Positions 10,473-36,149 of a stretch of DNA of 36,549 nt are shown in pieces. The notes beneath the pieces were generated by a model that saw nothing but the letters and a program-made list of their open reading frames with translations, did no database searches and was not told where the DNA came from. The translations under genes were made by a program, and so were the position numbers. The DNA is taken from contig JAQSDJ010000091.1 in NCBI GenBank assembly GCA_029945855.1, positions 4,426 to 40,974 on the forward strand, written 5' to 3'. Numbering within the stretch: position 1 is the first letter of the stretch; every line of letters begins with the position of its first letter. The DNA comes from Lacunisphaera sp. GTDB lineage: Bacteria > Verrucomicrobiota > Verrucomicrobiia > Opitutales > Opitutaceae.

Positions 10473-11867
10473 TTATTGCATTTGATATTTGAAAAAGGCC
10501 ACGCTCTCCGCCGGGAGGTCGAAGATGTGCTTGTCCTCAATTGTCATGGTCTCGCCGGTCCAGATCTCCTGCAGCTGCACGGGCCGGCGCACGGACGTCA
10601 GATTGTAGCTCGCTTCAAAGGCGACGAAGCCCAGTTCCTGCTTGGTCAGGGTGACTTTGCGATCGGTCATGGTGCGGTTGAATATGCCGATCCAGCCTTG
10701 CCTCGGGTCGCTCTTATGGGGTGTCAGCCAGACATCGATGTATCCGGCCCGGTACACGTTTACGCCCATGACCCCGTTTTGGTTGCAGGCCAGCATCTCC
10801 CGGTTGGTGAGCAGACGGTAGGAGAAATCGTCCATCGTCAGCAGATCCCCGCCAATAAACAGCGGCGAGGCGGCCATGGCGCGCTGGGTCATGAACGTTT
10901 TCATCTGCGCCTGGCTGAAATCACTCTGGCGGGCCCGTCGTTCCGGCCGCAGGTTGGGGATATCGTCCGTCCCGACCACGGTCAGGCGACCGAAGGGAAT
11001 CATGTCGAGGTCGGGCCAGAAGCCGGCGCCTTCCGTGCCGGGATATTTTTCCCACGCATAAAATCCCTTTTCAATGCTCAGGGGATTATCCCAGATGTCC
11101 CGGGTGATCCGCAGCATGTTGGCGTGCCGGTAGTAGGCGTGGTGGGCCGGGTGCAGCACGTCGCCCGGGGACAGGCTGTAGACCATGGCATGCCCGCCGT
11201 CCGCGATGGCCTTGGCCACGGCGACGATCTCCAGGGGATTGGGCACCACGTCGTCCACCTTGATGAAGTCAACGCCCCAACCGGCCAGCTTGTTGATCAA
11301 AGCATTGTAGTAGGCCTGCGCCCCCGGCTTGGACATATCGATGCCGTAGTTGTCCTTGTTCCACACGCACACATTGCTCGTGTCGGCAATGTCGCGGGCA
11401 AAATACGGCGTCCCCTTGATCGGCAGGTTCCGCTCGACCGCCTCCCGGGGAATGCCCCGGATGATCCAGACGCCGAACTTCAATCCCTTCCGATGGCAAT
11501 GATCGGCAATGGCCTTGATCCCGTTGGGGAAATACATCTGGCAGGGTTCCGGCAGGCCAAATTCATCCATGGAAACACCGAGGGTTTTCTTGGGATGCAT
11601 CGACCCGGGATACAGTTCGACATTCCGCGCCCAACCGGCATCCATCACGAAATAGTTGTAGCCGAACGGCAGATATTTCTCCGCCATCACGTCAATCAGG
11701 GCGTGCGCCTTGTCTTCGGACAGATACGTGAGGTAGCTGTCGAAACTGTTGAAGCCGAGCGGTGGGGTGGGGGCGGGGGCCGGGCGGGTTTGCGCGTTCA
11801 GCCCGGCGGACAGGAGCAAGGCAATTAGACCCAGGGCGAGCGGGATTCGGGGACAGATGGATTTCAT
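10473..11867 (-). CDS. GH27-like alpha-galactosidase, secreted
   Basis: With ATG at 11867 the product is 464 aa: a signal peptide (about 1-26, ending LNAQ), a TIM barrel, and a C-terminal beta domain (from about 385). The family's N-terminal GWNSW motif appears here as GFNSFDSY (about 38-45). The nucleophile strand reads VDFIKVDDV, with the Lys-x-Asp signature at about 203-205. The acid/base region reads RITRDIWD (about 253-260). The family removes terminal alpha-linked galactose or N-acetylgalactosamine, sometimes beta-L-arabinopyranose. The changes from Trp to Phe suggest a divergent subgroup. A 53-bp conserved regulatory block starts about 155 bp upstream, shared with two receptor units. 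It probably heads the unit lipoprotein-DUF1080-ThuA-kelch-enolase-like. The frame is open further upstream but lacks a signal there. Confidence 0.87.
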   Translation of the reverse strand: MKSICPRIPLALGLIALLLSAGLNAQTRPAPAPTPPLGFNSFDSYLTYLSEDKAHALIDVMAEKYLPFGYNYFVMDAGWARNVELYPGSMHPKKTLGVSMDEFGLPEPCQMYFPNGIKAIADHCHRKGLKFGVWIIRGIPREAVERNLPIKGTPYFARDIADTSNVCVWNKDNYGIDMSKPGAQAYYNALINKLAGWGVDFIKVDDVVPNPLEIVAVAKAIADGGHAMVYSLSPGDVLHPAHHAYYRHANMLRITRDIWDNPLSIEKGFYAWEKYPGTEGAGFWPDLDMIPFGRLTVVGTDDIPNLRPERRARQSDFSQAQMKTFMTQRAMAASPLFIGGDLLTMDDFSYRLLTNREMLACNQNGVMGVNVYRAGYIDVWLTPHKSDPRQGWIGIFNRTMTDRKVTLTKQELGFVAFEASYNLTSVRRPVQLQEIWTGETMTIEDKHIFDLPAESVAFFKYQMQ

Positions 11868-12021: not shown

Positions 12022-12074
12022 GTCAGCATAGCACACGCCCCTTGCCCGTGTATGCCCCCTATAATGGTGGCAAG
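12022..12074 (-). promoter_or_regulatory. Conserved 53-bp regulatory block, copy 3 (upstream of GH27-like gene)
   Basis: By direct comparison, this copy matches copy 1 at about 42 of 53 positions with no gaps. It contains an imperfect version of the 20-bp palindrome (12053-12072, TGCCCCCTATAATGGTGGCA on the plus strand). On the minus strand it has the conserved GGCAAGGG and TGTGCTATGCT elements; the latter can be read as an extended -10 (TGn followed by TATGCT). It lies about 155 bp upstream of the GH27-like start and reads towards it. Confidence 0.65.
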
Positions 12075-12109
12075 CGCGTTGCCGCCCGGTCGGAAGCTGC
12101 CCCCGGGGG

Positions 12110-12144
12110 CCCTTTTACTCCGACACCGCGCCGGAGTAAAAGGG
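12110..12144 (-). terminator. Hairpin terminator of the sigma/FecR/receptor unit
   Basis: A perfect 13-bp stem (CCCTTTTACTCCG at 12110-12122 and its complement at 12132-12144) with a 9-nt loop lies about 45 bp downstream of the STN-receptor stop. There is no long U-run, so termination could be rho-assisted, but the position and stem strength support a transcript end. A smaller hairpin (CTGACC/GGTCAG) lies between it and the stop codon. Confidence 0.65.
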
Positions 12145-12189
12145 AGGGTTCGCTGACCGAAACGTAATTCCGGTCAGAAACGATCCGAA

Positions 12190-15100
12190 TCAGAACTCGA
12201 ATGAGTTCGTCAGCGACCAGATTTGGGCCGTGGCGATGCGCCCGGTATCGATCGTGCCATCGGGCTGGGTGCTCACCGGGATGAGGCGATCACCAGTGCC
12301 GATGTTCTTCACGTTCAGCTGCACATTCCACTTGATTTTTTTCTTGGTCAACAGGCGGCTGTAGCCGATCCACGCATCGACGTTGGTTTCGGCCTCGCCG
12401 TAGTAGGGATTCATCACGTCAACGATGCCGTTGATGCCGTCCGGACCCACTTTGATGGGGAAGCCGATGGCCGCCTTGTCCTGCCAGCGGTAGGCAGCGC
12501 CGATGCGAACGCCATTGAGCTTGCCGCCCTTGAACGTGTAGTTCGTCACGGCATTGAAGCGCCAGCGGCGCAGCTCGGGAGTGACGCCACCATCGAGCAG
12601 TTCCTGTTTCTGGACATCAACATCAATCGACGAGTAATCAGTTCCGAGGTCGTTGGTCGTGCCCATCCCGAGCGGGAGGCGGGCGGCCGTTCCGCCCCAC
12701 ACCGGGGCGAGCGCGTCCATCATCTGACGGAATTGCAGGCCCGTATTGTCGTTGATGGTTATCTGCTCCGCCGCGTTGAAGGAGATGCGCCACTGGGGGG
12801 TCGGGTTATAAGTCACGTCGAACTCATAGCCTTCAGCGACGACGTCCTGGGTGGCCACCACCTCCTGGATACGTTCCTGAACGATGATGTTGGGGGTGCT
12901 GGCGGTCAGCGGACCGCTGGGGAACTGGTACCTGAACGTATTATACAGGGTCTGGGCGGGAGCCGTCTTTTCCCACGCGTCCCACGCCGCGAGCTGGCTG
13001 CCGAACCCGTTGAGGGTGACCTCGTCGCGGTAGGCCGTATTGCGGACGATCTCAGTCTGGTTCTCGAGGCGCCGAATGAGCCGGTTTTGGATTTCGGTGA
13101 ATTGGGCCGTGGACCCGACCGCAGAGGTCTCGTACCTGATCGCACGCAGCTGCAGCTTATCGTCGAACAAGGAAAGCAGGACACTCCATTCCTCCGTCTG
13201 GCCGCCGGTGGGGGCGATCGCGTTGTCGTAGATATCGTAACGCTGGGCGGTCGGCTGGAAGTTGTCCGCCTTGTTATAGGAAACGGAAACATCGGCGCCC
13301 CAGGGCAGCTTGCCCCGCAGGAACGGGGGCGTATGCAGCACGAGACCGTAGTTGAACTTGGTCGCCTCGATCGTTTTCGGCGGGTTCAGCATCCACACGG
13401 AGGGATCAAGAACTTTGAGACCTTCGGCCCCATAAAGCGGCCCCGTAGCCACCTGGCCATCGTAGGTGTCTTTGCGCCACCCCAGCGTGCTCACGAGGGT
13501 ATCGTCCCACCAGTAGCTGTTGGCCACGAAGGCCGTCGAGGCGACTTTCTCGTAGGCGTGGTCGCCACCGCTCGTCGTGTTTCTGAAGTCGTATTTTCCT
13601 TCCGGAACGATGCTGAAGGTGCCGGTCTTCCAGTCGCCGAGCGGACGCGGGAGGGGGGTGGTGACATTGGCCGGCCTTTCATAATAGAGGACTTTGATCG
13701 CCTCCACGCCATCGAGATTCTGGAGGGCGGTCACGCCGCTGAAAGAGTAGCCTTGCATGGAAGTGGCATTCACCAGGCTGGGCCCGTGGTAGGCCAGGCG
13801 GACGACGGAACGCTCGCCGCCGCCGACGTTGAACACCCGATTCGGGTTGGCCGCCGTGGCCGCGGTAAGGTCGGCCTGGGAGTTGATGAGTTTCGCCGCT
13901 TGGTAGTCGTTACCCATGTTATCGAGTCGGGCGCCGAAACTGTAGGTTTCCCTGGTCTGCTCGGTGTAGTTACCGGTGAAGACGTGGCGGCCAAGCAGCT
14001 TCGCCAGCCAGGGCCGCTTCATTCCGGTAAAGTCGAGCCGGTAGAAGGCGTTGGCCCGGTAGGACTCGCGTTCGGCGGAATTGGAGTTTTGGAAGCCGAG
14101 AGCGGTATTGGTCATCGGCCGGCCCAGATTCGGGTTGGGCATGCCGTTCATCAGATGGGTGTTGATATCGATGTTGATCGTATTCTGCCGGAACTGGAGC
14201 GGCTGGACGAAACCGGAATCGAGTTTCTGCCAGTCGTAGGTGATTTCGAAGCCGGCGTTGCTGCCGAGGTCCTGCGAAAAGTTGGCGTTGAAGGTGTCCC
14301 AGAAGGCCCACTCCCGTTTGTTGGGACCTTCGAGCATTTCATTATAGAAATCGAAGATCGCCGGGTCCATGATGCGCTGGTCTTTCCAGAAGTTATACAA
14401 GAGCGGCTTATCCGTGTTGATTTGCCGCATATAATCCTGGGCGTTACCCAGCCTGCGCAGGCCGTCGTTGGCATAAGCGCCCGTGGTAGTCAGGCGCCCG
14501 CGGGTGTTGCCGTACTCCATGGCCACGATCGCTGGATCCAGCCCGGTGATGCCCAGTCGCGAGGAGTTGGGATCTTCCGAGACGAGCTGCAGGGCCCCGT
14601 TCTGGGGGATACCGCCGGTCAAGTTACCAGGACGATTGGTGGAAGAGGTGAAGGGGAAGATGTTGGCGGCATTGGGCGTACCGGCACCCGTGACGGGGTC
14701 CCACGGACGAAGGGCGACATTGGTCGAGGGCGTGCCCAGGTAGGAGCCGAGGCCCGTGGTCGGGTTGTAAACGGGCTTGCCCATCGCAAGCCACCACGTG
14801 AGCGAGTCCATCGGGGTGGTGGTGTATGGTTTGGCGGATTTCTGTTCCGACTTTTCGGTGCTGAGGCGTAGCTGAGCCCCTTTCCACGGACGATAGGTGC
14901 CGGTGATGAAATACCGCTCGTCGCGGATGAACGCGGGCTTGATCTGATAGCGCTTGTCCGAAAGGAGCGTCGCGAAGCGCAACGCGAGCTTGTCCTTGAT
15001 CAGGACCTGGTTGTGGTCGAACACCAGGCGCCGGGAAGCTTCCTGGTCGAACTGGGCTTCCACCTTCGTTTTGGTCTTGTTCGTCAGGGCCTTGATCATG

Positions 15101-16050
15101 CCGCTGTTGACGATACCGCCCGGTCTGCCCAGGCCGAAAAGGATGGCATTCGGTCCGCGGTTCACCTCCACGCGGTCGATGTTGTAGCCGTCCATGGGCG
15201 TATCGGTGAGGAAGTAATCGCGAGTCTGATCAGCGGCACCCAGTCCGCGGACGCGAGTCTCGCCCTGGGGTCGGCGACTCGCGCCATTGAATTCCTGGAA
15301 GCCACCGGAATTGAAGCCGGAACCGCTGAAATTACCGGACAAGCCTTCGACTTCGGTACCTGCGGTGTAAGTAAGCAGATCCTCGAGGTTGTTGGCCGCG
15401 ATGTCGTTCATGAAATCCTTCGTGACCACCGAGATCGAGGCGGCGACATCGCGGAGTTCCGTGCGGAGGCGGGTGCCGGCCAGGGTGCCGCTCGCGCGGT
15501 AGCCCGTGTCGGCCGAGGCATTGACCTCGAAGGGGGTCAACACGATGACTTCATCTTTCACGGGAGTGGTCACCGTTTGCGCGAAGGTCACGGTGGTCGC
15601 GACCAGCCAACCGGCAGCGGTGGCGAGCAGGGTTCGGGGGGATTTTTTCATGGGCTGTGTCAGGGCTTGGTTTGGTGGTTTCGGCGACTTCGCAGCAGCG
15701 CGCGGCTTGGATTCGCGTGTGATGACGAAGGCTCCGGTTTTCCCATCCATCTTCACCCTGAGCCCGGTGTGGACGACCAGCCGATCGAGCGCGTCGCGTG
15801 GAACGAACGTGCCTTGCACGGGATTGGTTGTCACACCGCGCACGTTTTCGATCAGATAGACGAGTTGAACGCCCGCCTGATCGGAAAACATATCCAGCGT
15901 CATCTCCGCATCCGCGGACGGTATGGTAAACGTCCGTATCACCACGTCCGCACCATAGAGGTGGAGCGGTAGCAGCGTGAACAGGAGGATCAGCGTAGAT
16001 GCCAGGTGGCGGCGGGGAGGCCGGTCATCCTGACGGTTGCGGGGTAACAT
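12190..16050 (-). CDS. TonB-dependent outer-membrane receptor with N-terminal STN signalling domain and internal signal peptide
   Basis: The 1286-aa product has several parts in order. First is a signal peptide (about 1-33, HLASTLILLFTLLPLHLYGA). Next is an STN (secretin/TonB short N-terminal) domain (about 36-115). A basic/Pro linker follows, then a second complete signal-peptide-like segment starting at Met134 (MKKSPRTLLATAAGWL to about 158). A TonB-box-like DEVIVLTPFEVNA lies at about 166-178, then the plug, then a long beta-barrel ending in phenylalanine. The STN domain fits the FecR and ECF sigma genes directly upstream, so this should be the sensing transducer of a cell-surface signalling system. 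An ATG at 15651 would give a 1153-aa receptor without STN. It is a paralogue of the receptor at 21-24.6 kb; both share GTL(A/S)GTRLRT(E/D)LRDVAAS and the C-terminal QLNV(K/R)NIG...LIPV..QPDG stretch. The ligand is probably an oligosaccharide. Confidence 0.9.
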   Translation of the reverse strand: MLPRNRQDDRPPRRHLASTLILLFTLLPLHLYGADVVIRTFTIPSADAEMTLDMFSDQAGVQLVYLIENVRGVTTNPVQGTFVPRDALDRLVVHTGLRVKMDGKTGAFVITRESKPRAAAKSPKPPNQALTQPMKKSPRTLLATAAGWLVATTVTFAQTVTTPVKDEVIVLTPFEVNASADTGYRASGTLAGTRLRTELRDVAASISVVTKDFMNDIAANNLEDLLTYTAGTEVEGLSGNFSGSGFNSGGFQEFNGASRRPQGETRVRGLGAADQTRDYFLTDTPMDGYNIDRVEVNRGPNAILFGLGRPGGIVNSGMIKALTNKTKTKVEAQFDQEASRRLVFDHNQVLIKDKLALRFATLLSDKRYQIKPAFIRDERYFITGTYRPWKGAQLRLSTEKSEQKSAKPYTTTPMDSLTWWLAMGKPVYNPTTGLGSYLGTPSTNVALRPWDPVTGAGTPNAANIFPFTSSTNRPGNLTGGIPQNGALQLVSEDPNSSRLGITGLDPAIVAMEYGNTRGRLTTTGAYANDGLRRLGNAQDYMRQINTDKPLLYNFWKDQRIMDPAIFDFYNEMLEGPNKREWAFWDTFNANFSQDLGSNAGFEITYDWQKLDSGFVQPLQFRQNTINIDINTHLMNGMPNPNLGRPMTNTALGFQNSNSAERESYRANAFYRLDFTGMKRPWLAKLLGRHVFTGNYTEQTRETYSFGARLDNMGNDYQAAKLINSQADLTAATAANPNRVFNVGGGERSVVRLAYHGPSLVNATSMQGYSFSGVTALQNLDGVEAIKVLYYERPANVTTPLPRPLGDWKTGTFSIVPEGKYDFRNTTSGGDHAYEKVASTAFVANSYWWDDTLVSTLGWRKDTYDGQVATGPLYGAEGLKVLDPSVWMLNPPKTIEATKFNYGLVLHTPPFLRGKLPWGADVSVSYNKADNFQPTAQRYDIYDNAIAPTGGQTEEWSVLLSLFDDKLQLRAIRYETSAVGSTAQFTEIQNRLIRRLENQTEIVRNTAYRDEVTLNGFGSQLAAWDAWEKTAPAQTLYNTFRYQFPSGPLTASTPNIIVQERIQEVVATQDVVAEGYEFDVTYNPTPQWRISFNAAEQITINDNTGLQFRQMMDALAPVWGGTAARLPLGMGTTNDLGTDYSSIDVDVQKQELLDGGVTPELRRWRFNAVTNYTFKGGKLNGVRIGAAYRWQDKAAIGFPIKVGPDGINGIVDVMNPYYGEAETNVDAWIGYSRLLTKKKIKWNVQLNVKNIGTGDRLIPVSTQPDGTIDTGRIATAQIWSLTNSFEF

Positions 16051-16128
16051 GGATGGGGTTTTCCCATCGTCCCGTAGGCCGACGGCAGAGGGAAGACGCG
16101 GGATCGGGCGATTTCCTCTATCGGGATT

Positions 16129-17154
16129 CTAACTTTTTTTCCGCAACACGAGGGTGCCGTCCGCGGTGACGTCAACCTCGAGGTCGAGGGTCGTGGCCAG
16201 AAGGTGGGTGAAACCTGCGAGGTCGTTGCCGCGAAAACGGCCACCGACGCGGAGCGACGCAAGCGCGGGGTCGGCGAGGATGACGCGCTGACCGGAGCGC
16301 CGTTGAAACTCCAGCACGAGTTCGGCGAGGGTCGCACCGCCCAGCCGCAGCAACGGCTCCTGCCACGCGAGAGCGTGCGCGATCTCTTCGGGGGTCGCCG
16401 TGGTGACGACGGAAGTGGCGCTCCCGGGCAAGGTGCCAGCGAAGGAGACAACCGCGCGCTCGTTGGCGGTCAGGCGCGGAAGGTCTGCGACGGGCCGGGC
16501 GGTGCGGTCGCCGGAAACCGATGGCGTCGACCGGTCAAGTTGCACGATGCCTTCGGTGACAAGGACCTCCACCGCGGCTGGCTGGAGACTGACGTTGAAG
16601 GCGGTGCCGACGGCGCGGACATCGATACTTTTTGCCTGGACGACGAAGGGGCGGGCCGGATCTTTCGTGACCGCGAAATGCGCCTCGCCGGCGGCGAGGC
16701 GCACGCGGCGCTCGTTGGCGGTGAACTGTTCGATGACTTCACCGCCGGTGTTGAGATGTACGACGGTGCCGTCCGGGAGCGTGATTTGGCGCGGGCCGGA
16801 GGTCAGTGCGCCGGCTGGAGCGGGCGCCGCGGACGGGCGGGTGGGAAGGAGGGCGACGAGAGCGAGGGCGGCAGCGGCGGCGAGGGAACCGATGACCATG
16901 GTACGGCGCCAAAATGAGCGCCGGCGGGTGGCGGCAACCAGCACGGGGGCGGCGACGCCTTCCGGGATGCGCTCAAGGAGCGACCACACGGAGGCACATC
17001 GATGCATTGCCCGGGCGTGGCGCGGATCGGCGGTGAGCCAGAGTTCGTATTCGATCGATTCGGTGGCGGACAGGCCACGGTCACGCCGAATCGTCCACTG
17101 TGCGGCAGTGGCCCGGAGCGCGGAATCGTCCAATGGATGCGGGGTCGGACTCAT
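16129..17154 (-). CDS. FecR-like anti-sigma factor / transmembrane signal transducer
   Basis: The start ATG at 17154 gives 341 aa. A cytoplasmic N-terminal segment (about 1-80) carries the DUF4880-type pattern AAQWTIRRDRG and WLTADPRHARA...W, which binds the sigma factor in this family. One transmembrane helix follows at about 86-104. Then comes the periplasmic FecR domain (about 120-215; ITLPDGTVVHLNTGGEV, RRVRLAAGEAHFAV, VRAVGTAFNV). A C-terminal STN-like/DUF4974 segment (about 265-341) ends LVLRKKS. It should relay the receptor's STN signal to the ECF sigma factor encoded 210 bp upstream. The receptor starts 78 bp after its stop. The 210-bp sigma-FecR gap holds no recognisable gene. Confidence 0.92.
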   Translation of the reverse strand: MSPTPHPLDDSALRATAAQWTIRRDRGLSATESIEYELWLTADPRHARAMHRCASVWSLLERIPEGVAAPVLVAATRRRSFWRRTMVIGSLAAAAALALVALLPTRPSAAPAPAGALTSGPRQITLPDGTVVHLNTGGEVIEQFTANERRVRLAAGEAHFAVTKDPARPFVVQAKSIDVRAVGTAFNVSLQPAAVEVLVTEGIVQLDRSTPSVSGDRTARPVADLPRLTANERAVVSFAGTLPGSATSVVTTATPEEIAHALAWQEPLLRLGGATLAELVLEFQRRSGQRVILADPALASLRVGGRFRGNDLAGFTHLLATTLDLEVDVTADGTLVLRKKS

Positions 17155-17364
17155 CGGCAGCAGTCGGGATGGTCCGCCCAATGGGCCGGGGCCGCAACCT
17201 GGCGGAGGCGGCCAGACCCAAGGCCGGACAACACACGAGGATGCGGCTGCTCCGGACGGCAGGGGCGAAAACCTCCCGGATCCGCTCGATCGACGGCGAA
17301 GAATTCTGCGGATTGAAAAGTGCCGGAAGAAAACACCATGGGAAGAGAGGGCAGAAAATGCGAT

Positions 17365-17889
17365 TTAAGGCAAACCATGCCGGGCGAAGAAATCCACACA
17401 CCGGTGCAGCGCCTTGTTGAGTTGCGCTTCGACGGTGTGGACGGAAATGCCGAGCTTTTCCGCAATTTCGCGGTGGGAAAGATTTTCAAATTTGCGGAGT
17501 ACGAGGATTTCACGGCAGCGCGGCGGCAGCGCGGCAATCGCCGTCGCGAGCAGGTCAGTCTCCTGCTGGCGGCTGGTGGTCTCGGCGGCGTTGAGCGCAG
17601 AGTCGAAGACGCGCGAAGCGACGAATTCCGTTATCGGAATCGTGTTGGCCGTGGTGCGGCGGCGATGGAGGTCGTGGGCGGCGTTGCGGGCGGTGGCGAA
17701 GAGCAGACCACGTGGATGCCGGACGGGGCCACGCTCAAAGGCGCGCAGGAGACGGACATAGGTTTCCTGCATGAGGTCATCGATGTCGGAGGGATTGACA
17801 AACCCGTGCAGGTAAGCGCGCAGAGCCGGCCCGTGGGGCGCGAGTTCGGTCGCAAACCACTGTACCTGATCGGAGGGGGGCGTTTCCAT
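17365..17889 (-). CDS. ECF-family RNA polymerase sigma factor (FecI-like)
   Basis: From ATG at 17889 the product is 174 aa; a GTG at 17925 would add 12 residues. Region sigma-2 is visible as ALRAYLHGFVNPSDIDDLMQ followed by ETYVRLLRAFE and LLFATARNAAHDLHRRR. Region sigma-4 is IAALPPRCREILVLRKFENL followed by SHREIAEKLGISVHTVEAQL with the helix-turn-helix. With the adjacent FecR and STN receptor this forms a standard cell-surface signalling trio, in which ligand binding at the outer membrane releases the sigma factor. The conserved 53-bp block lies about 150 bp upstream, and the same block precedes two other units. That makes it either this factor's own promoter or the site of another shared regulator. 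Confidence 0.92.
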   Translation of the reverse strand: METPPSDQVQWFATELAPHGPALRAYLHGFVNPSDIDDLMQETYVRLLRAFERGPVRHPRGLLFATARNAAHDLHRRRTTANTIPITEFVASRVFDSALNAAETTSRQQETDLLATAIAALPPRCREILVLRKFENLSHREIAEKLGISVHTVEAQLNKALHRCVDFFARHGLP

Positions 17890-18037
17890 GAGGAGATCGA
17901 GCAGGCGGTAAGAAGACGGGGGCACGCCTGCATTCGAGGTGCTGTGCGTAAGTGAGCAATTATCAATAAATCACACGCGCAGAAATTGAATGGTGGGGTA
18001 ACTCCGTCGCGAGGTGGGGCAGGGGTGCCTGACTGCA

Positions 18038-18090
18038 GTCAGATTAGCACAAATCCCTTGCCAGCGTATGCCCCCAATTCTGGGGGCAAG
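18038..18090 (-). promoter_or_regulatory. Conserved 53-bp regulatory block, copy 1 (upstream of ECF sigma unit)
   Basis: The block contains the perfect palindrome TGCCCCCAATTCTGGGGGCA (18069-18088), eight-base arms around a four-base centre. On the minus strand this is followed by CATACGC, GGCAAGGG and TGTGCTAATCT, a possible extended -10 region. It differs from the copy at 24777-24829 at one position only. The outer CTTGCC and the downstream GGCAAG are also complementary, giving an alternative pairing. It lies about 150 bp upstream of the sigma-factor ATG. Confidence 0.7.
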
Positions 18091-18123
18091 TGGAGCCGTG
18101 ATTGCGCGCTATCGATACAAACC

Positions 18124-18165
18124 CCTGCAATTAGCCCAGATTGTCCTGTAATTGGCCCGGATTTT
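18124..18165. repeat. 21-bp tandem direct repeat (two units)
   Basis: Two adjacent 21-bp units (18124-18144 and 18145-18165) share the pattern CCTG-y-AATT-r-GCCC-r-GATT. The matching position in copy B (24863-24883) has a single unit. A 21-bp period equals two helical turns, as expected for side-by-side protein sites on one DNA face. The repeats lie upstream of the 53-bp block relative to transcription. Confidence 0.6.
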
Positions 18166-18414
18166 CCTCCGGAATTCCAAGACTGGAAAGTGCGACGGTA
18201 GGCCGCTTATTTCATACTCCACAATGCCAAGACAACACCCCCCGTGACTCCCGCCTTCGCCCAGCTTCGGCGAGGCAAGTCGTGCCACCCCTCTTGATAG
18301 AGGGGATCGCATCCACGCCAGCGAAAATCCCCTCGATGAAGAGGGGCATGCCAGCCCTGGGCTTGGTGACGGCTGGTGCCCGCAGGGCGGGGTGTGGCGG
18401 GGGCGTGTGAAATG

Positions 18415-18482
18415 GGTAGTGTCCCAACATCGCACCGGCGAGGCGGCCTTGCAGTATTTCGCGAACAGGCTGCAGGCCGCGG
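18415..18482. other. Short non-coding spacer left of the IS element
   Basis: This stretch lies between the duplicated segment and the IS66 target site. It is GC-rich, with no gene or clear signal. Removing the IS restores continuity with the sequence after 20919, so this region originally ran directly into the 3' end of the receptor unit at 21 kb. Confidence 0.5.
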
Positions 18483-18490
18483 GGTGAGTT
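18483..18490. repeat. IS66 target-site duplication, left
   Basis: GGTGAGTT directly abuts the left terminal inverted repeat and is repeated exactly at 20912-20919. Confidence 0.93.
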
Positions 18491-18503
18491 GTAAGCGTCC
18501 GGC
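18491..18503 (+). repeat. IS66 terminal inverted repeat, left
   Basis: GTAAGCGTCCGGC is identical to the complement of 20899-20911. The GTAAGCG start is the usual terminus of IS66-family elements. Confidence 0.92.
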
Positions 18504-18621
18504 CGGTGACACGGCGGGCGACCTAGGTCTGGGACCTTGATGGTGACCAATGAGGTGACCAAAGTTGGCACCAATGAGGACCGCGATGGTGGTGCCGTTT
18601 TGGGTAAAGCCGCGATCCAGT

Positions 18622-20100
18622 CTAGGCTGGGCGCCGCCACTGCGACTGCGACGGCAGCAGCGGCCGGAGGTCGTCCTGGTTGGTCATCGTCGGCAAACGC
18701 GTGAGCACATCGCGGAGGTAAGCCAGCGGCTCGATGCCGTGGCGTTTGCAGGAGATGACGAGCGAGTAGATGATGGCCGAGCGATCGCCGGCGTCGGGAT
18801 GGCCGATGAAGAGCCAGTTTTTTGCGCCCAGCTTCGTCGGCCGGATCGAGTTCTCGACGAGGTTGGTATCGAGCCGGGTTTGTCCGAAGCGCAGGTGTGC
18901 GGTCAACACCGGCCACTGCGCCAGCAGGTAGTGGCAGGCCTGGCCCATGAGCGAACGCGGCCGCGCTCTCCCCGCCAGGTGCTTGGTCACCTTGTGCAAC
19001 AACGCCAGCGGCCGAGCAAAATCACGCTGCCGCAACTCGGCCCGCTGGACCGGATCCGTCCAGCCGGCCTCGTCCCAGATCTTCTCGAGGTGGTAAAGTT
19101 GTCCGATCTGACGCAGGACGAAGCCCGCCGGCTTCGGTGCTTCCTTGAGCGCTTCATGGAAGCGCCGTCTCGCGTGAGCCCAGCAACCAACAACGGCCAC
19201 GCCCTCGTGCTCGCGGGCAAAGTTGGCATACGCCGGATACGCATCCGACTGGAGCACGCCACGGAAGCCGGCCAGCAAGCTGGTCGCCTCGCCATGGCGA
19301 CGCGACAGCCGCCAGTCGAAGACGACATCACCTCCGGGGCGACTAATCACCCACAGCCACCCTTGGGTCGTGCCCCCGTTTTTCTCATCGGGATCATTGC
19401 ACCGGATCGGCGTTTCATCGCACTGGACGTAGTCACCGGTAATCAGCTCACGGTGCATTTGCCGGTAAAGGGGTTGGAGCCAGTCGGCAACTCGGGCGAT
19501 CCAGTCGGCCATCGACTGGCGAGAGAGCCGCGCCCCCATCCGCTCCGACATCTGCTCCTGCCGGTAGAGCGGCTGGTGATCCACGTATTTGGAGAGCGTC
19601 ACCCAAGCCAAGAGTCCGGCCGAGGCGTAACCGCCGGCCACGGCCCGCACCGGCGCCGGCGCCACCACCGGAGGCCGGCTGCGATCGGCCTTGTGCCGAT
19701 ACTTCGGGCGCACGATCTCGCGTTTCACGAGCTGCGGCGGCACCACGTCGATCTCGAAGCTGCGCTCCTCGCCGATCCGCTCATACGCCTCTGGCTCCGC
19801 CTGCACCTCCGCGGGGATCAACTCGATGGTTTCCTTGACCGGCAGGTCCGCAAAGTTCTCCGCCGGCAAGACCCGCGCCACGGGCGCACTCCGCTCGTAG
19901 CTGATCTTCTGCACCGGCGGGTAGGCCGCCAGCTTCTGCTCCAACTCCCCGAGTTGCAGCGCCAACTGCGCGCTGTCCTGCCGCTCACTCTTGCCCCCAC
20001 CAAAGAGCTGTTTCTTCAGCCAGTCCACCTGCGCCCGCAGCGCCTCCACCTCCGTCTTCAGCCGGAGGTATTCTTGGGCGAGTTGTTCGGGCGGCGGCAC
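18622..20100 (-). CDS. tnpC: IS66-family transposase (TnpC)
   Basis: The 492-aa protein has a coiled-coil N-terminus (EQLAQEYLRLKTEVEALRAQ followed by VDWLKKQLFG and KSER, about 5-40). A zinc-finger-like/IS66 central region follows, then a DDE catalytic core with Asp in YVQCDETPI, Asp in VLQSDAYPAY and Glu in TNLVENSIRP. The C-terminal IS66 motif reads KNWLFIGHPDAGDRSAIIYS. The start is GTG at 20100, 39 bp after the TnpB stop. The full length and all catalytic residues appear present. It moves the element by DDE-type strand transfer. The 130 bp between its stop and the left end are non-coding. Confidence 0.96.
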   Translation of the reverse strand: MPPPEQLAQEYLRLKTEVEALRAQVDWLKKQLFGGGKSERQDSAQLALQLGELEQKLAAYPPVQKISYERSAPVARVLPAENFADLPVKETIELIPAEVQAEPEAYERIGEERSFEIDVVPPQLVKREIVRPKYRHKADRSRPPVVAPAPVRAVAGGYASAGLLAWVTLSKYVDHQPLYRQEQMSERMGARLSRQSMADWIARVADWLQPLYRQMHRELITGDYVQCDETPIRCNDPDEKNGGTTQGWLWVISRPGGDVVFDWRLSRRHGEATSLLAGFRGVLQSDAYPAYANFAREHEGVAVVGCWAHARRRFHEALKEAPKPAGFVLRQIGQLYHLEKIWDEAGWTDPVQRAELRQRDFARPLALLHKVTKHLAGRARPRSLMGQACHYLLAQWPVLTAHLRFGQTRLDTNLVENSIRPTKLGAKNWLFIGHPDAGDRSAIIYSLVISCKRHGIEPLAYLRDVLTRLPTMTNQDDLRPLLPSQSQWRRPA

Positions 20101-20139
20101 GATAAATACATAGCACGTTGCATGCCAACATGATAAACG

Positions 20140-20484
20140 CTATCTTTCATACCAAGCCTTCAGGCTCCCCTGTTTCAGGTCAATCCCCGCGATCAACATC
20201 GTCAGCGCCTCCGGCGCCAGCGTCAGCTTCGTGCGATCACTGCCCACCGGCCACGTTAGCCGACCTTTTTCCAGACGCTTCGCGAACACCCACACTCCGG
20301 TCCCGTCCCAGTAAAGCAGCTTCAAGCGGTTCCGGTCCTTGTTCGTGAACACGAACACCGCCCCGCTCCGTGGGTTCTCCTGGAGCTTCTGCTCCGCCAA
20401 CGCCCACAGCCCGTTGTATTGGTTGCGCATGTCCACCGGCTCCACCGCCAGATAGATCTTCAGCGCCGTCGGGAAGCTCAGCAC
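20140..20484 (-). CDS. tnpB: IS66-family accessory protein TnpB (Orf2)
   Basis: The 114-aa protein is of standard IS66 Orf2 type: IYLAVEPVDMRNQYNGLWAL near the N-terminus, SGAVFVFTNKDRNRLKLLYW in the middle, then DGTGVWVFAKRLEKGRLTWP. It starts with GTG at 20484, overlapping the end of tnpA by 7 bp, which suggests coupled translation. It is needed with TnpA for efficient transposition of IS66 elements, though its biochemical role is not settled. Confidence 0.95.
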   Translation of the reverse strand: MLSFPTALKIYLAVEPVDMRNQYNGLWALAEQKLQENPRSGAVFVFTNKDRNRLKLLYWDGTGVWVFAKRLEKGRLTWPVGSDRTKLTLAPEALTMLIAGIDLKQGSLKAWYER

Positions 20485-20852
20485 GGGGCGCCCTCCAGCA
20501 ACGCTCGCACCAACGCGGCCATCGCCGTGGCGTTCGTCCCGCGCACGACCAGGCCATTCGGCAACGCCACCTCCAGCGGCGCCGCTCGCGCCGCCGTCCC
20601 GATCGGCCCGAGGCGTAATTCCTGGAACCGTGGGCCGGGTTTGGCGGCATCACCGCGCTGCCGCGCCTGCGCCAGCCAGTCTACCAACGTGTGATATTTG
20701 ATCCCTTCGCGCTCCGCGAAGACGCGCTGCGTCAGCCCGCTCTGCGCGTAGGCAGCGAGCAACAGCTCCCGCTGTTTCGTGGTCACGATCCGCCGCCCTC
20801 GCTCGTCGCGCTTTTCTCCCGTGTCGATTAATTCTGCCAAGATTGCTCCCAT
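20478..20852 (-). CDS. tnpA: IS66-family accessory protein TnpA (Orf1)
   Basis: The 124-aa protein has an N-terminal helix-turn-helix (RELLLAAYAQSGLTQRVFAE followed by REGIKYHTLVDWLAQAR) typical of IS3/IS66-type Orf1 DNA-binding proteins. Its C-terminal segment, LEVALPNGLVVRGTNATAMA followed by ALVRALLEG, is characteristic of IS66 TnpA. It is the first gene of the element, starting 59 bp inside the right end, and its stop overlaps tnpB. Confidence 0.94.
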   Translation of the reverse strand: MGAILAELIDTGEKRDERGRRIVTTKQRELLLAAYAQSGLTQRVFAEREGIKYHTLVDWLAQARQRGDAAKPGPRFQELRLGPIGTAARAAPLEVALPNGLVVRGTNATAMAALVRALLEGAPC

Positions 20853-20898
20853 CCAGGGAGATTATCCGATCCCGCCTCCGCCGACTAGGAGGTCGCCC

Positions 20899-20911
20899 GC
20901 CGGACGCTTAC
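20899..20911 (-). repeat. IS66 terminal inverted repeat, right
   Basis: The complement reads GTAAGCGTCCGGC, identical over 13 bp to the left terminus. Confidence 0.92.
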
Positions 20912-20919
20912 GGTGAGTT
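20912..20919. repeat. IS66 target-site duplication, right
   Basis: GGTGAGTT directly abuts the right end of the element and repeats 18483-18490 exactly. Confidence 0.93.
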
Positions 20920-20965
20920 TCACGGGCGGGCCCGCCGGCTTTCCCCCAGCCAGCCGGGTGGGGAT

Positions 20966-20998
20966 AAAAAAGAGCGGACCAACCAGGGTCCGCTCTTT
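20966..20998 (-). terminator. Rho-independent terminator of the receptor gene at 21-24.6 kb
   Basis: On the minus strand, AGAGCGGACC, a short loop and GGTCCGCTCT are followed by a run of six T. The stem spans about 20969-20980 paired with 20987-20998. It lies about 30 bp after the receptor stop codon and outside the IS element. This is a textbook intrinsic terminator. Confidence 0.92.
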
Positions 20999-21028
20999 GC
21001 ACTGGCAATCCAAGCCGAGTATTTCGGT

Positions 21029-24000
21029 TTAGAAGTCGAACTTGTTGCTGATCACCCAGGTCATCGGCTCGGCGGTGCGGTAGGCGGCGATGGAGCCGTC
21101 GGGTTGGGCTGCCACCGGAATGAGTTTCCGATCCACCCCGATATTGCGCACGTTGAGCTGCACCGACCAGTTGAGCCCGTGCTTCAACTTGCCCGTATTC
21201 AGCTTGCGGGAGTAGCCGATCCAGGCGTCGTAATTGGTCTCGGCTGACCCGTAATACGGGTGCTTCACGTCGGGCAGCGGATTATAGGTCACGACGCCCT
21301 TCGGCACATTGATCACCGGATAGCCGATCGCGATCTTGTCCTGCCAGCGGACGGCGCCGCCAATTCTCAGGTTCTTCAGCCGACCTTCCGAGAACGTATA
21401 ATTGGTCACGACGTTGAAGCGCCACTTGCGTTCTTCCGGGGAGGGGCTGCCATCCAGCAGGATTTCCTTTTGGATATCAACGATCTCCTGCGCGAAACCG
21501 TCCCGGATCGCCGTGGTGGAGTTATTCGACTGCGGAAGATCACCGGCCGGACCTTGCATCAGGACGTCAATCTTGTCCGCGAACTCATTGAGCGCAGCGC
21601 CCGTGTTGCTGCGCACCGCGGAAGATTTGGCCGCGTTCGCGGAAATCCGCCAGTTCCTCGTCGGGGTGTAGATCAACTCGTAGTCCCAGCCCTTGGAGAC
21701 GATATCGGAGGTCGAGACCACCGAATCAACCCGGTCATCTTTCGTCTGGGTGGGCAGGCCGACATCCTTATAAAGGAACGTGTCGAGGAAGTTCTTCCCA
21801 TAGGGGGTCGCCCAAAAGTCGTTCCACGCCTTTTGGGCCGCAATCGCGCCGGCGGTCTTCGGGGCGGATGTGTCCTGCGGTTGGGGATCCGAGTAGATGC
21901 GGTTGTTGAAGCTCTGGGCGATGTTCAGGTAGGTCTGATTAACATGCCGTTGGATATTATTTTGGGGCCCGCGCAGATTGGGGTTGGTCGCATTGGCCGC
22001 CTTGGTCTCATAATTGACCACGCGCAGCTCGAATTTGCCATCGAAGAAGCCCACCCGGCCACCAAACTCCTTCGTCGAGCCCGTCGGGGCCTCAATCGGC
22101 TTGCCGTCGACCCCGACAACCGGGCTGGCCGGCGATTTATTGTCGGATTTGTTGTAGGTGAGCGAAAAAGTCATCCCGGCCGGCAACCGATCGGTGATAA
22201 ATTTCGGAGCGTGGGCAACCAGGCCGTAGTTAAAGGTGCTGACCTCGGTCGAGATGGTCTGCTTGAGGGGCCAATTCAGGTCATCAACCAGCGCGAAATT
22301 GTCCGGCGTGCGGTTGGGCGCCCCGGAATCGAAGGCCTCGAATTTGTCTTTGCGCCACCCGAGCGTCGTGATCAGGTTGTCCGCCAGCAGGCGGCTGTTC
22401 AGAATGATGACCTTCGAGAGGGATTCGCTCTTTTTTCGGCTCATCGTGTATTGTCCATTGCCGTCCCGGGTGGTCCACATGCTGGTATCGTTGAGCGCAG
22501 TGAACGCCTTGTCCTGCCATTGCGCGGGCGCCTGTGAGCCGGTGACAGGCGATTGATAATACCGAGTGAGCACACTGGGAACGTTGAAAATACTGGTGAC
22601 CACACGGGTGCTCTGGATGCCGCCGTTTCGTGCGTCCGTCGCATTGGCCAAGGAGGGCCCCATGTAGTTCATCATCCAATAGGCCCGCTTATCCCCCGAA
22701 AAGTTCCGGCTGATGACGGTCGTCGTGCCGGCATTGGCGGCCTGTTCTGAATCCAGGTAGTCGGCCCCGCTGTAATTCGGACGGCCACCAAAGGACTCAT
22801 AAAAATAGTCCGACGACGTGATATTGCCCGTGACAATGTGCTTGCCCAGGAGCTTGCCCAGCCAGTCACGGGAATTTTTCCGAAGATCCAGTTCGTAGTA
22901 GGCCGTGACCCGGGCGCCTTCGCGGTCACGTATCTGGGTCTCGGCCCAGCCGACGGAAACAACGTAGGGCCGGCCAAAATTAGGATTGGTTGTGCCGTCC
23001 GGCAACTTGGTGTTGATGTCGATTTGAATGCTTTGGTTGGTGGGGTTGTTGATGGCCGAGTCCAACCCCTGCTTGTCGACGGAGAATTCCACGCCCGCGT
23101 GGGCCCCGAGGCGTTGTTCAAGCGTAACATTGAAGGTCTTCCACCGGGTATTCTCAAACTTGTTGGGCCCTTCGACCAATTGCGTGTAGTAGTCGTAAAT
23201 GGAGGTGTCCGTCATGGTTCGCGGCGTCTTGATGAAATTCCAAAGCATCGTTTGGGGCGTCCAATTGGTGCTGTTGGGTGCGCCGGTCACGCCTGTCATT
23301 TGACGCTGCAGATAAGTGCGCGCGTTGGGCATGCTGGCCATGCCGTCATTCACGAGCGGATTCGTGGCATTGGGCGTGGTGAGAACATTGAGATGCACCC
23401 GATCATTCGTAAATTCGTAACCGATGACACCCCGTTCCTTGCCGTCACCAGTGATACCCAAGGAACGCACATTGGGATTCTCGTTTATGATATAGATCGA
23501 ATCAGTAAAACCCCCGAGCAAGCTGCCTTTTCCCCCATTCCAGGTGTTGGGCACCCCGCTTACCGTGGTAAGATTTCCCGGGTACAAAGGGTTCACCGCC
23601 CCGTTGGCCAGCAGGATGGGCGGCGGCGTGCCCAGGAACGTCAGGCGCTGAGTCGTCGGATCGTAGGTCGGTTTCCCCATCTGGAACCAGGCGCTGATCT
23701 GATCGGTCGGAAGCCAGTTCTGCGGCTTGTTGGCATAGCGATGGGCCGACTCTCCGCTGACCCGGAGAGTCGTGTTTTTGAACGGCTTGAACGTCAGCGT
23801 GCCATAGAAGCGCTCATTCAAATCAGAGGCCGGATCCTGCATGTATTTCTGCTCGCCCTTCAACGTGGCAAAACGGAAGGCGAGCTTGTCTTTGATCAGG
23901 ACCTGATTGTGGTCCAGCGTCCCGCGGTATGTGCCGAAACGGCCATACTTGGCCTCGACCGACGTCGCGTTGCGATTCATTTTGGCCCGGATCAGCTGGG

Positions 24001-24592
24001 CGTTGACGATACCGGAGGGCGACCCGAGCCCAAAGAGCATGGCGTTGGGGCCGCGGTTGATCTCGACGCGATCAACATTGTAGCTGTCCGAGGGAATATC
24101 TGTGGTAAAAAAGTCCCGCGCCTGATCGGAACCCGTCGTGCCCGTGCCGATGCCACGTATACGGACGATCGAACCGGGCTGGCGGTTGACCTGTTCCACA
24201 TCGATGTTGGTGCTGCCGACATCAAAGGCGGACATGTTGCCGCCGAGGCCGGAGACCTCGGTGCCGTTGGTATAGACGAGGAGTTCGGCGAGATTCGTGG
24301 CGCCAACGTCCTCCATGAACTGCTTCGTCACGATCGAGGTGGACGCGGCAACGTCGCGGAGGTCGGTGCGCAGGCGGGTCCCGGAAAGCGTGCCGCCCGC
24401 GGCGTAGCCCTTGTCGTCGCTGGGGTTGACCTCGAAGGGCGACAAGACGATGACCTCATCGTCCGGGCTCACGGTTGCCGGCGCGGGGTTTGCCGGAGCG
24501 GTGGTCGTTTGGGCCTCCAAGGCGGGCAGGGCGAGCAGAGCCAGGGCGGCAAGCAGCCACGGGCTGCGGGGTTTGGTTCGTTGGGTTTTCAT
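21029..24592 (-). CDS. TonB-dependent outer-membrane receptor without STN domain
   Basis: From ATG at 24592 the product is 1187 aa: a signal peptide (about 1-28, MKTQRTKPRSPWLLAALALL then ALPALEA), a TonB-box-like DEVIVLSPFEVNPSDD (about 45-60), a plug domain (about 65-240) and a beta-barrel ending in phenylalanine (NKFDF). It resembles the STN receptor at 12-16 kb throughout, for example GTLSGTRLRTDLRDVAAS, GPNAMLFGLGSPSGIVN and QLNVRNIGVDRKLIPVAAQP, so the two are paralogues. A frame reaching 24682 lacks any signal and is not preferred. The gene stands alone between a conserved 53-bp regulatory block (about 185 bp upstream) and a strong terminator. It probably imports an oligosaccharide, working with the hydrolases encoded on both sides. 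It lacks the STN domain, so it should not signal to FecR itself. Confidence 0.92.
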   Translation of the reverse strand: MKTQRTKPRSPWLLAALALLALPALEAQTTTAPANPAPATVSPDDEVIVLSPFEVNPSDDKGYAAGGTLSGTRLRTDLRDVAASTSIVTKQFMEDVGATNLAELLVYTNGTEVSGLGGNMSAFDVGSTNIDVEQVNRQPGSIVRIRGIGTGTTGSDQARDFFTTDIPSDSYNVDRVEINRGPNAMLFGLGSPSGIVNAQLIRAKMNRNATSVEAKYGRFGTYRGTLDHNQVLIKDKLAFRFATLKGEQKYMQDPASDLNERFYGTLTFKPFKNTTLRVSGESAHRYANKPQNWLPTDQISAWFQMGKPTYDPTTQRLTFLGTPPPILLANGAVNPLYPGNLTTVSGVPNTWNGGKGSLLGGFTDSIYIINENPNVRSLGITGDGKERGVIGYEFTNDRVHLNVLTTPNATNPLVNDGMASMPNARTYLQRQMTGVTGAPNSTNWTPQTMLWNFIKTPRTMTDTSIYDYYTQLVEGPNKFENTRWKTFNVTLEQRLGAHAGVEFSVDKQGLDSAINNPTNQSIQIDINTKLPDGTTNPNFGRPYVVSVGWAETQIRDREGARVTAYYELDLRKNSRDWLGKLLGKHIVTGNITSSDYFYESFGGRPNYSGADYLDSEQAANAGTTTVISRNFSGDKRAYWMMNYMGPSLANATDARNGGIQSTRVVTSIFNVPSVLTRYYQSPVTGSQAPAQWQDKAFTALNDTSMWTTRDGNGQYTMSRKKSESLSKVIILNSRLLADNLITTLGWRKDKFEAFDSGAPNRTPDNFALVDDLNWPLKQTISTEVSTFNYGLVAHAPKFITDRLPAGMTFSLTYNKSDNKSPASPVVGVDGKPIEAPTGSTKEFGGRVGFFDGKFELRVVNYETKAANATNPNLRGPQNNIQRHVNQTYLNIAQSFNNRIYSDPQPQDTSAPKTAGAIAAQKAWNDFWATPYGKNFLDTFLYKDVGLPTQTKDDRVDSVVSTSDIVSKGWDYELIYTPTRNWRISANAAKSSAVRSNTGAALNEFADKIDVLMQGPAGDLPQSNNSTTAIRDGFAQEIVDIQKEILLDGSPSPEERKWRFNVVTNYTFSEGRLKNLRIGGAVRWQDKIAIGYPVINVPKGVVTYNPLPDVKHPYYGSAETNYDAWIGYSRKLNTGKLKHGLNWSVQLNVRNIGVDRKLIPVAAQPDGSIAAYRTAEPMTWVISNKFDF

Positions 24593-24704
24593 GGGGTGGT
24601 TTAGGGTTTTGGGACAGTGAGAGAGTAGTCTGGAAGAGTAGGGCGTGAACGGGGCGGGGGCGGGGATTTTGCGGCAGGACATGGCGCCAACGGAGGGTTA
24701 GCAA

Positions 24705-25111
24705 AAAATCACCGCGGGCAGAAATTGACGAGCGGAGTAATCGATTTGTGAGGTGGGGTAGTGGTGCCTAACTACAGTCAGATTAGCACAAATCCCTTGC
24801 CTGCGTATGCCCCCAATTCTGGGGGCAAGTGGAGCCGTTATAGAGCGCTATCGATACGGACTCCTGTAATTGGCCCAGATTTTCCTCCGGAATTCCATGA
24901 CTGGAAAGTGCGACGGTAGGCCGTTTATTTCATACTCCACAATGCCAAGACAACACCCCCCCGTCACTTCGTGCCACCCCTCTTGATAGAGGGGATCCCA
25001 TCCACGCCAGCGAAAATCCCCTCTATGAAAAGGGGCCTGGCAGCCATAGGCTCGGCGACGGCCGCTGCCCGTCAGGGCGGGGTGTGTAGGGTTCGCGGGG
25101 CGTGTGAAATG
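24705..25111. repeat. Duplicated intergenic segment, copy B
   Basis: This is the partner of 17968-18414. It contains the 53-bp block (24777-24829), one 21-bp unit (24863-24883) and the paired hairpins at 24977-24994 and 25018-25035. It makes up most of the 720-bp gap between the receptor start and the CBM/DUF4832 gene. The rest of that gap holds a second palindromic repeat (25193-25273) and no recognisable gene. Confidence 0.85.
24777..24829 (-). promoter_or_regulatory. Conserved 53-bp regulatory block, copy 2 (upstream of receptor)
   Basis: This copy is identical to copy 1 except at one position. The perfect 20-bp palindrome is at 24808-24827, and the promoter-like TGTGCTAATCT follows on the minus strand. 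It lies about 185 bp upstream of the receptor ATG. Confidence 0.7.
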
Positions 25112-27143: not shown

Positions 27144-27197
27144 AAATTTGATTGGATGATATCCTGACTTGGTTTCTGCATCGATTGGCCTCCCGCC

Positions 27198-29066: not shown

Positions 29067-29164
29067 TGGTTTTAAGTAAGGAAGTAGGGGCGGCGCTGGC
29101 CGCCCCCCGCGGGCGTCCACCAGGGGCGCCCCGGCATTACTATCAAAGCGCATGGAAATTGGCC
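29067..29164. other. GC-rich spacer between DUF4832-like and DUF5060 genes
   Basis: A GC-rich stretch with the imperfect palindrome GGCGGCGCTGGCCGCC lies about 20 bp upstream of the DUF5060 start. It is possibly an RNA hairpin at an operon junction. No gene is visible. Confidence 0.35.
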
Positions 29165-30715: not shown

Positions 30716-31611
30716 TTATTGGCCCCGGCGGGCGTGGTCAGACCGGCCTGGGCGGCGAGATCCGGGGGAAAAGCCGTGATCGGAGTCAGCCGGATGTTTC
30801 GGTAAAAGCACTCCGCGGCCTCGGACTGGAGCTGGATCCGGCCGGATTTCAGCGGGTTTCCGTTCTTATCGAGGGCTTCCGTAATCGCCATGAGGACTAC
30901 GCCGTTGGCGAGATGGATGGCCGAGTCGCCCACGACATAAATCTCCAGATGGTTCCACTCCGCGTGCGGGCGGTCCGGTTCAGCGGAAGCCGAGAGATGG
31001 CCCGTCCAGTAGCCCCAGGGGGTCGGGGACTGCGGGTCGAAGATGTTTTTCTTTTCCCCGACGATGCGGAAGCGGGACTTGGCCTTGGTGCCGGCCAGCA
31101 GGTGGATATCGCCGAGATCAGTCTCCTGCACCTGCGCCTCCAGGCAGCTCATCCAGACCTGCCAGAAAGCGCCGTGTTCGCCATGACAGTGGTAGAGGAT
31201 GCCGCTGTCACGTTTTTGATTCAGTCTCGGCTCCCATTTGCGGTCACCCCATTTGAAATCCATGCTCAAGTGGTAATTGGCGTACTCTTTTTTGGTCGTG
31301 AGCCCGCCATAGATCTCCCCGCTGATGTGCAGAACGGTCGCGCCGTTTTCGGAGAACGTGGAGAATACTTTTTTGGGGTCGTGGTTCAGACCGAGGGGCG
31401 TGCCTTTGGTCACGTCCGTGGCTTGGAAGGTGCCGGCCGGGAGGCCGGTGACGGAAGCATGAGGCACCCCGATGAATACCTCCCACTGCGAGAGCGAGGC
31501 ATCGAGCAGGTTCGTGGAGCCCGCGGCTGTGCCCGGCGAGGCGGGCGTTTGTGCGAAGAGCCCGGAGGCGAGCAGGCCGGAGGCGAGGAGCAGTGTGCGG
31601 GGAAGTTTCAT
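30712..31611 (-). CDS. DUF1080 (3-keto-disaccharide hydrolase family) protein B, secreted
   Basis: The 299-aa protein has a signal peptide (about 1-20, MKLPRTLLLASGLLASGLFA). The jelly-roll DUF1080 domain follows: LSQWEVFIGVP, VLHISGEIYGGLTTKKEYAN (then YHLSMDFKWG), RDSGILYHCHGEHG, EWNHLEIYVVG and the final RIQLQSEAAECFYRNIRL. It differs markedly from DUF1080 protein A at 8.6-9.4 kb, so the two probably serve different substrates or steps. The gene lies 54 bp after the DUF5107/TPR gene, and its stop overlaps the next start. Cleavage of a 3-keto-glycoside is known for the family but not demonstrated for this branch. Confidence 0.88.
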   Translation of the reverse strand: MKLPRTLLLASGLLASGLFAQTPASPGTAAGSTNLLDASLSQWEVFIGVPHASVTGLPAGTFQATDVTKGTPLGLNHDPKKVFSTFSENGATVLHISGEIYGGLTTKKEYANYHLSMDFKWGDRKWEPRLNQKRDSGILYHCHGEHGAFWQVWMSCLEAQVQETDLGDIHLLAGTKAKSRFRIVGEKKNIFDPQSPTPWGYWTGHLSASAEPDRPHAEWNHLEIYVVGDSAIHLANGVVLMAITEALDKNGNPLKSGRIQLQSEAAECFYRNIRLTPITAFPPDLAAQAGLTTPAGANK

Positions 31612-31665
31612 GGGATGGTTCTTGGGTTGGACTTCAAAGGGGGACGTCGCGGCTGGGTACGCGGG

Positions 31666-34977: not shown

Positions 34978-35070
34978 GGCGGGGAGGGGAGTGAAAAGTG
35001 ACGTATGATTGATTAGGGACCGAAGGGTCGGGCGGGGCTGGGCAACGACCCGGTCGAGGCGGTCACGGCC

Positions 35071-36099: not shown

Positions 36100-36149
36100 A
36101 GGATTCTGGTGTCGTTTCAGACTGATTAGATTACTTAAGTGATGCGATC

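Follow-up and report, generated by a model that had tools for sequence, protein, structure and literature searches.

Three gene units in one stretch of a Lacunisphaera genome start shortly downstream of the same 53-bp block, and the locus raises two questions: whether this block is a shared control element or a by-product of duplication, and, if it is a control element, which protein reads it. The window, i.e., the whole stretch of 36,549 nucleotides that was analysed (G000:C91:4426-40974), belongs to a 5.0-Mb draft assembly in 330 contigs.

The block and the genes that it faces

All three copies of the block are ungapped, lie on the minus strand, and occupy the coordinates given in the first-pass annotation, i.e., 12022-12074 (copy 1), 18038-18090 (copy 2) and 24777-24829 (copy 3). 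Pattern search resolves each of them into a dyad followed by an extended -10 element, also on the minus strand. In copy 1 these are TGCCACC-N6-GGGGGCA at 12053-12072 and TGCTATGCT at 12025-12033; copies 2 and 3 have TGCCCCC-N6-GGGGGCA at 18069-18088 and 24808-24827, respectively, and TGCTAATCT at 18041-18049 and 24780-24788. The 20-bp palindrome noted in the annotation is thus present as a dyad in every copy, and is imperfect in copy 1 (TGCCACC...GGGGGCA). A 50-base consensus of the three copies, with up to three mismatches allowed, matches the window three times and has no match in 100 shuffles.

The annotation took copies 1 and 2 for near twins and copy 3 for a diverged copy outside the larger duplication. 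Direct counting of positions gives a different picture: copies 2 and 3 agree at 52 of 53 positions, and copy 1 agrees with either of them at 42 of 53. Copies 2 and 3 both sit in promoter DNA that is duplicated over about 400 bp (17976-18382 with copy 2 and its partner 24715-25071 with copy 3, repeat families D2-D4), and it is copy 1 that lies outside. Once the labels are exchanged, the diverged copy can still be argued to be the informative one, with the reservation that copies 1 and 2 are also alike downstream of the block, so that some common ancestry is possible. Since copies 2 and 3 represent one duplication, the main evidence within the window is the comparison of copy 1 with that pair. 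Both duplicated segments have also kept short CCCCTC...GAGGGG repeats (at about 18287-18346 and 24977-25035), and an IS66-type transposase gene (18622-20100) is found between the two receptor units, and between the two duplicated stretches.

The genes served by the three copies are all on the minus strand. Copy 1 faces a GH27-like gene (10473-11867; Pfam Melibiase_2, predicted ATG at 11867, signal-peptide-like start). Copy 2 faces a unit that begins with an ECF sigma factor gene (17365-17925; Sigma70_r2 and Sigma70_r4_2) and continues with a FecR-like gene (16129-17181; Pfam FecR) and TonB-dependent receptor 1 (12190-16050; Plug domain, a sub-threshold STN match, FecA-like N-terminus). Copy 3 faces TonB-dependent receptor 2 (21029-24592; Plug domain, predicted ATG at 24592). 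Between the predicted start of transcription and the likely start of the gene there are about 151 nt for copy 1, 109-145 nt for copy 2 and 181 nt for copy 3. For both receptors the best NCBIfam matches are models of siderophore receptors, all of them far under the cut-offs, and a glycan ligand of these receptors is for this reason only putative. The gap between receptor 1 and copy 1 contains a strong, terminator-like hairpin, cccttttactccg / cggagtaaaaggg at 12110-12144, in which a T run is not evident by eye; it fits separate transcription of the GH27-like gene.

Occurrence in the genome and likely targets

Outside the window, a fourth copy came up with a shorter pattern; it lies at C111:4114-4145, 5' of a gene for a GH31 enzyme, and has two mismatches and an intact dyad. 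A sequence model built from four copies then pointed to a fifth place, C121:13880-13927, which was outside the training set and scored 39.7 bits (E 2.3e-9); the next candidates reached at most 14.5 bits, among the 150 of 789 first-look candidates that were scored. Two of the weak candidates of this model, both on contig C26, turned out to be one perfect dyad (C26:1349-1368) located between divergent genes. The site on C121 has a spacer of 18 rather than 19 nt and one changed base in the dyad, and on C26 the single dyad serves two divergent promoters with equal spacing. The CATAC and GGCAAG motifs of the block are missing at C26, and the core of the element is therefore the dyad and the extended -10. 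In total there are seven promoters at six places, with 19 nt between the dyad and the -10-like element in six promoters and 18 nt in one; the 20-bp dyad is symmetric at 7-9 of its 10 base pairs.

The core can be written as the dyad TGCCMCC-N6-GGGGGCA, 19 nt, and the extended -10 TGCTAnnnT. We searched the 5.0-Mb draft with the pattern TGCCMCC-N6-GGGGGCA-N19-TGCTANNNT, allowing up to three mismatches, and obtained six matches, namely the three in the window, the one on C111, and C26 on both strands. Each has zero mismatches, none was seen at one to three, and the backward control gave none. All six sites were already known when the pattern was drawn, so this search shows only that other sites and near misses are absent. 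The scan of the whole genome from the copies, which the annotation had proposed with an eye to gene context, thus found matches upstream of receptor and glycan-enzyme genes. Scatter inside genes, which it had held to speak against a functional block, is not seen for the full element; dyads lacking a -10 occur at about the rate of the control.

Looser patterns illustrate the last point. The dyad with CATAC, at up to three mismatches, has 12 matches in the genome versus 5 for its backward control; five of the 12 are the sites that have CATAC, and seven have three mismatches, C26 being one of these. When the dyad is searched by itself with up to one mismatch allowed, the count is 22 strand-matches versus 13 for the control, and the places outside the six sites are on C171, C125, C194, C305, C307 and C324 (C171 with no mismatch on its better strand). 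None of these six extra dyads has a TGnTA -10 at 17-21 nt. The stop-to-stop frames around them have at least 254 codons, but copy 1 (540) and C26 (543) also sit in such frames, so that open frames do not separate true dyads from chance ones. Among 252 genomes of the family, a 45-base block with up to three mismatches occurs in one, which is the genome under study; a 30-base part of the block has no exact match in a search of genome contigs from which this genome was possibly left out. The relaxed core, at up to two mismatches, matches once in each of 16 of the 251 other genomes, and we take these matches as chance because the backward control matched dozens of times.

Each of the seven promoters is directed towards a gene, and the leaders predicted for them are 80-181 nt long. 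Five of them precede genes for glycan-active enzymes: the GH27-like gene, the two GH31 genes on C111 and C121, and the sulfatase and GH42-like genes on C26. The remaining two precede the ECF/FecR/receptor 1 unit and receptor 2. The GH31 gene of C121 is followed on the same strand by genes for a GH27-like protein, a Melibiase, an aldose epimerase and a sulfatase. The suggestion that the block combines an operator with an extended -10 promoter is supported by the recurrence of the fixed dyad-to--10 spacing on other contigs, with zero mismatches, before glycan-enzyme genes. Judged from sequence, the block very probably is indeed an operator-promoter common to the genes of a small regulon, and we infer that its substrate is a galactose-containing, probably sulfated glycan. 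What appeared as a local repeat thereby becomes part of a defined regulon, with genes spread over four contigs of the draft; for enzymes without a known substrate one common inducer is predicted, and a likely sensor can be named (see below). DUF4832 proteins and 3-keto-disaccharide hydrolase domains are encoded both in the window (25314-36473) and on C111 (L044:8385-14752), and these proteins of the two contigs may act on the same glycan.

The geometry would also suit an activator. The dyad ends 22 nt before the -10 hexamer, which is preceded by TGC, as in extended -10 promoters, and has no recognisable -35. If transcripts start about 7 nt past the -10, the dyad would be at about -54 to -35, i.e., where a class II activator would be in contact with RNA polymerase. 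A role of the dyad as an RNA hairpin was considered and rejected because it lies upstream of the -10.

Could the copies be a dispersed repeat, such as a mobile REP-like palindrome that settles near promoters, or simply the descendants of duplicated promoters? Copies 2 and 3 do come from one segmental duplication, with flanks alike throughout, and IS66 and other transposase genes are close by. There are hints of shared ancestry also among copies 1, 2 and C121: copies 1 and 2 resemble each other over the 100 bp downstream of the block, with a score reached by none of 100 shuffles, and copy 1 and C121 are near-identical from the dyad through the -10 and marginally alike upstream (score reached by 2 of 100 shuffles). 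Copies 1, 2, 3 and C121 may accordingly have descended from one promoter. The sites on C111 and C26, on the other hand, look independent, as their flanks (100 bp on each side) have no likeness to any other copy beyond that of shuffles. A REP-like repeat would be expected in many copies with a loose relation to promoters; here there are just six places in 5.0 Mb, and all seven promoters are oriented towards a gene and hold the -10 at 19 nt (six) or 18 nt (one). We regard the repeat explanation as very improbable.

Candidate readers of the dyad

The annotation left two readers in competition, the local ECF sigma factor and an unlinked regulator. The first is now disfavoured, and the second is favoured, with a candidate found on C111. 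Under the ECF explanation the block would be the -35/-10 recognition site of the sigma factor, whose targets would be its own gene and those around it. The ECF gene does have one of the seven promoters before it, and GGCATAC and GTGCTA of the window copies can be read as ECF-like boxes. A sigma factor has no need of a dyad, however, and at C26 the would-be -35 part (GGCATAC) is gone, whereas the dyad and TGCTAnnnT stay. Of the 11 best other loci with related ECF genes (68-89% identity), 10 have upstream DNA (L014 has none, and L016 has 387 bp), and the block is seen at none of these 10; with the score matrix of the block, no locus of the 11 exceeds 1.2 bits, versus 67-71 for the copies. The E. 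coli model likewise offers no precedent for such autoregulation, fecIR being under the control of sigma-70 and not autoregulated (PMC9249621). The ECF explanation is therefore unlikely, and it is more probable that the ECF unit is itself controlled with the regulon than that it reads the block.

The dyad on C111 (4098-4117) has the GH31 gene on one side and, on the other, a divergent frame (1,076 codons) for a histidine kinase with a propeller-type sensor; its domains are Reg_prop, Y_Y_Y, HisKA_3 and HATPase. If read from the GTG listed as its start (4103), this frame overlaps the dyad, and the Met codon at 4022 is more likely to be used. The gene 3' of the kinase (L008:195-854) encodes a regulator of 219 aa with Response_reg (1.6e-22) and GerE (2.3e-17) domains, for which the nearest solved structures by sequence are DevR (3c3w) and NarL (1a04). 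This arrangement, with the dyad between the GH31 and kinase genes and the regulator gene next to them, makes the NarL/LuxR-type response regulator our candidate, and we predict, with somewhat better than even confidence, that it is the activator acting at the dyads. In such a scheme, the kinase would respond to a glycan fragment, and dimers of the phosphorylated regulator would occupy the dyads. Transcription of the GH27-like, GH31, sulfatase, GH42-like, receptor and ECF/FecR/receptor genes would follow, with the main sigma factor.

Several observations bear on this assignment. On the kinase side of the C111 dyad no matching -10 is seen by eye. Regulator genes of this type cluster with glycan genes, so the presence of a dyad beside a single one of them could be chance. 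The three closest paralogues of the regulator in the genome are 47-50% identical to it, and the stretches read around them contain no copy of this dyad; at their loci (on C195, C164 and C159) there are two weak, unlike dyads with a -10-like string and otherwise GC-rich inverted repeats. Relatives of the kinase at E <= 1e-100 occur in 26 of the 252 family genomes, this one included, and the best of the others is 41% identical (up to three candidates per genome were scored). The kinase and the 45-base element are thus equally private to the genome, which agrees with their pairing without proving it.

The same operator-promoter may also be read by another regulator, unlinked or encoded in the window, that acts as an activator or a repressor, and we consider this distinctly less probable than not. 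Dyads suit many families of regulators, and a GntR/FCD regulator gene (4079-5116), amid genes that resemble sugar catabolism (xylose-isomerase-like, MR_MLE, transketolase), is situated about 7 kb from copy 1. Operators of FCD-type GntR proteins have a GT...AC core, which the dyad lacks, and the only copies of the element in the window are the three described, none of them near the GntR gene. The other neighbour of this kind is an AraC-like C-terminal fragment, in frame with a transposase, that adjoins the C121 site; that the match covers a fragment only speaks against it as the reader. The frame in question (L080:14005-14763) combines a DDE transposase match with the C-terminal part of an AraC-family domain, and is apparently a regulator cut off by a transposon.

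If the C111 regulator and the dyad belong together, related loci elsewhere might be built in the same way, and three of them have 20-bp dyads with the 19-nt spacing seen here and with sequences that differ from the TGCCMCC dyad. In one genome of the same genus (G012), the kinase and NarL-type regulator genes are followed by a perfect dyad TGTCATCC-N4-GGATGACA, 19 nt, and TGTTAGGCT; the contig stops short of its target gene. In another (G013), TGTCATCT-N4-GGACGACA, 19 nt, and TGCTATATT are directly 3' of the kinase and regulator genes, and the target has a secreted-protein-like beginning with no Pfam match in the 79 residues covered. The third, G049 of the same family, has TGTCCCAT-N4-TGGGGACA, 19 nt, and TGCTAAGGT before a GH39 gene, about 2 kb from the kinase and regulator. 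The three are not blind tests, since the dyad of G012 had drawn attention in the first scan and its pattern then led to the one in G013. The regulators of G012 and G013 share the recognition-helix string TVKTYIRRICEKL (translated by eye for G013), and their half-sites are nearly the same. The sibling loci are in effect a small natural test of how the recognition helix of NarL-type proteins maps onto the half-site.

A TGYC-type dyad at 19-nt spacing is found at 3 of the 23 related kinase/regulator loci with wide flanks (25 stretches, 305 kb); a set of 80 regulator loci that are more distant (1.27 Mb) has none. At 8 further kinase loci with flanks of up to 1.5 kb, no dyad whatever is seen at this spacing. 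When any dyad with a -10 is counted, at up to one mismatch and with spacers of 18-20 nt, there are five in the 305 kb versus none in 157 kb of control DNA (29 ECF loci, one further ECF contig and the three paralogue stretches of the genome itself). The excess over the control is small and weak. With spacers of 5-40 nt there are nine dyad/-10 pairs, in five of which the spacer is 18-19 nt. The genomes with the most similar kinases, G174 and G109, have no clear site near the kinase, and G109 has one weak dyad about 5 kb away (L139). In both of them, a sulfatase-like gene is seen by eye 5' of the nearest kinase relative (L051 and L052, to about base 1310).

Comparison with known regulatory systems

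The described operators of NarL/FixJ (LuxR/GerE-type) regulators include the DevR/DosR, ComA and GacA/UvrY boxes, to which the lux box of LuxR can be added. These sites are inverted repeats of about 16-20 bp, and some have the class II position near the -35 region. The 20-bp dyad is of similar size, and its placement would be that of class II if transcripts start where predicted. The half-site TGCCMCC/GGGGGCA, however, was matched to no described box; also unlike those systems, the extended -10 is part of a fixed geometry, and the partner kinase has a propeller sensor. A literature search limited to titles and the openings of abstracts gave no description of this operator or of operators of Reg_prop/NarL systems. 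The kind of system is already known, and the operator sequence and the link to an ECF/FecR receptor unit are absent from the results of that search; the regulon is thus ordinary in kind and new in detail.

Bacteroidetes have polysaccharide utilization loci with hybrid two-component sensors that join Reg_prop and Y_Y_Y domains and an AraC output in one protein. C111 resembles them in having a Reg_prop and Y_Y_Y sensor next to glycan-use genes, and differs in that the HisKA_3 kinase is accompanied by a separate NarL-type regulator.

A broader scheme, which we offer tentatively, is a two-tier cascade, with the propeller-sensor two-component system above the ECF/FecR unit, together with sibling systems in the genus and family that share the chassis of dyad, 19 nt and extended -10, differ in their half-sites, and might allow a recognition code between helix and dyad to be read. 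For its lower tier a known counterpart is FecI/FecR/FecA, where the ECF sigma factor, FecR and a receptor with an N-terminal extension likewise form one unit. In E. coli, fecIR is sigma-70-controlled and lacks autoregulation (PMC9249621). Unlike in the Fec system, the block before the ECF gene is common to genes outside the unit, which points to possible control of an ECF/FecR receptor unit by a two-component system.
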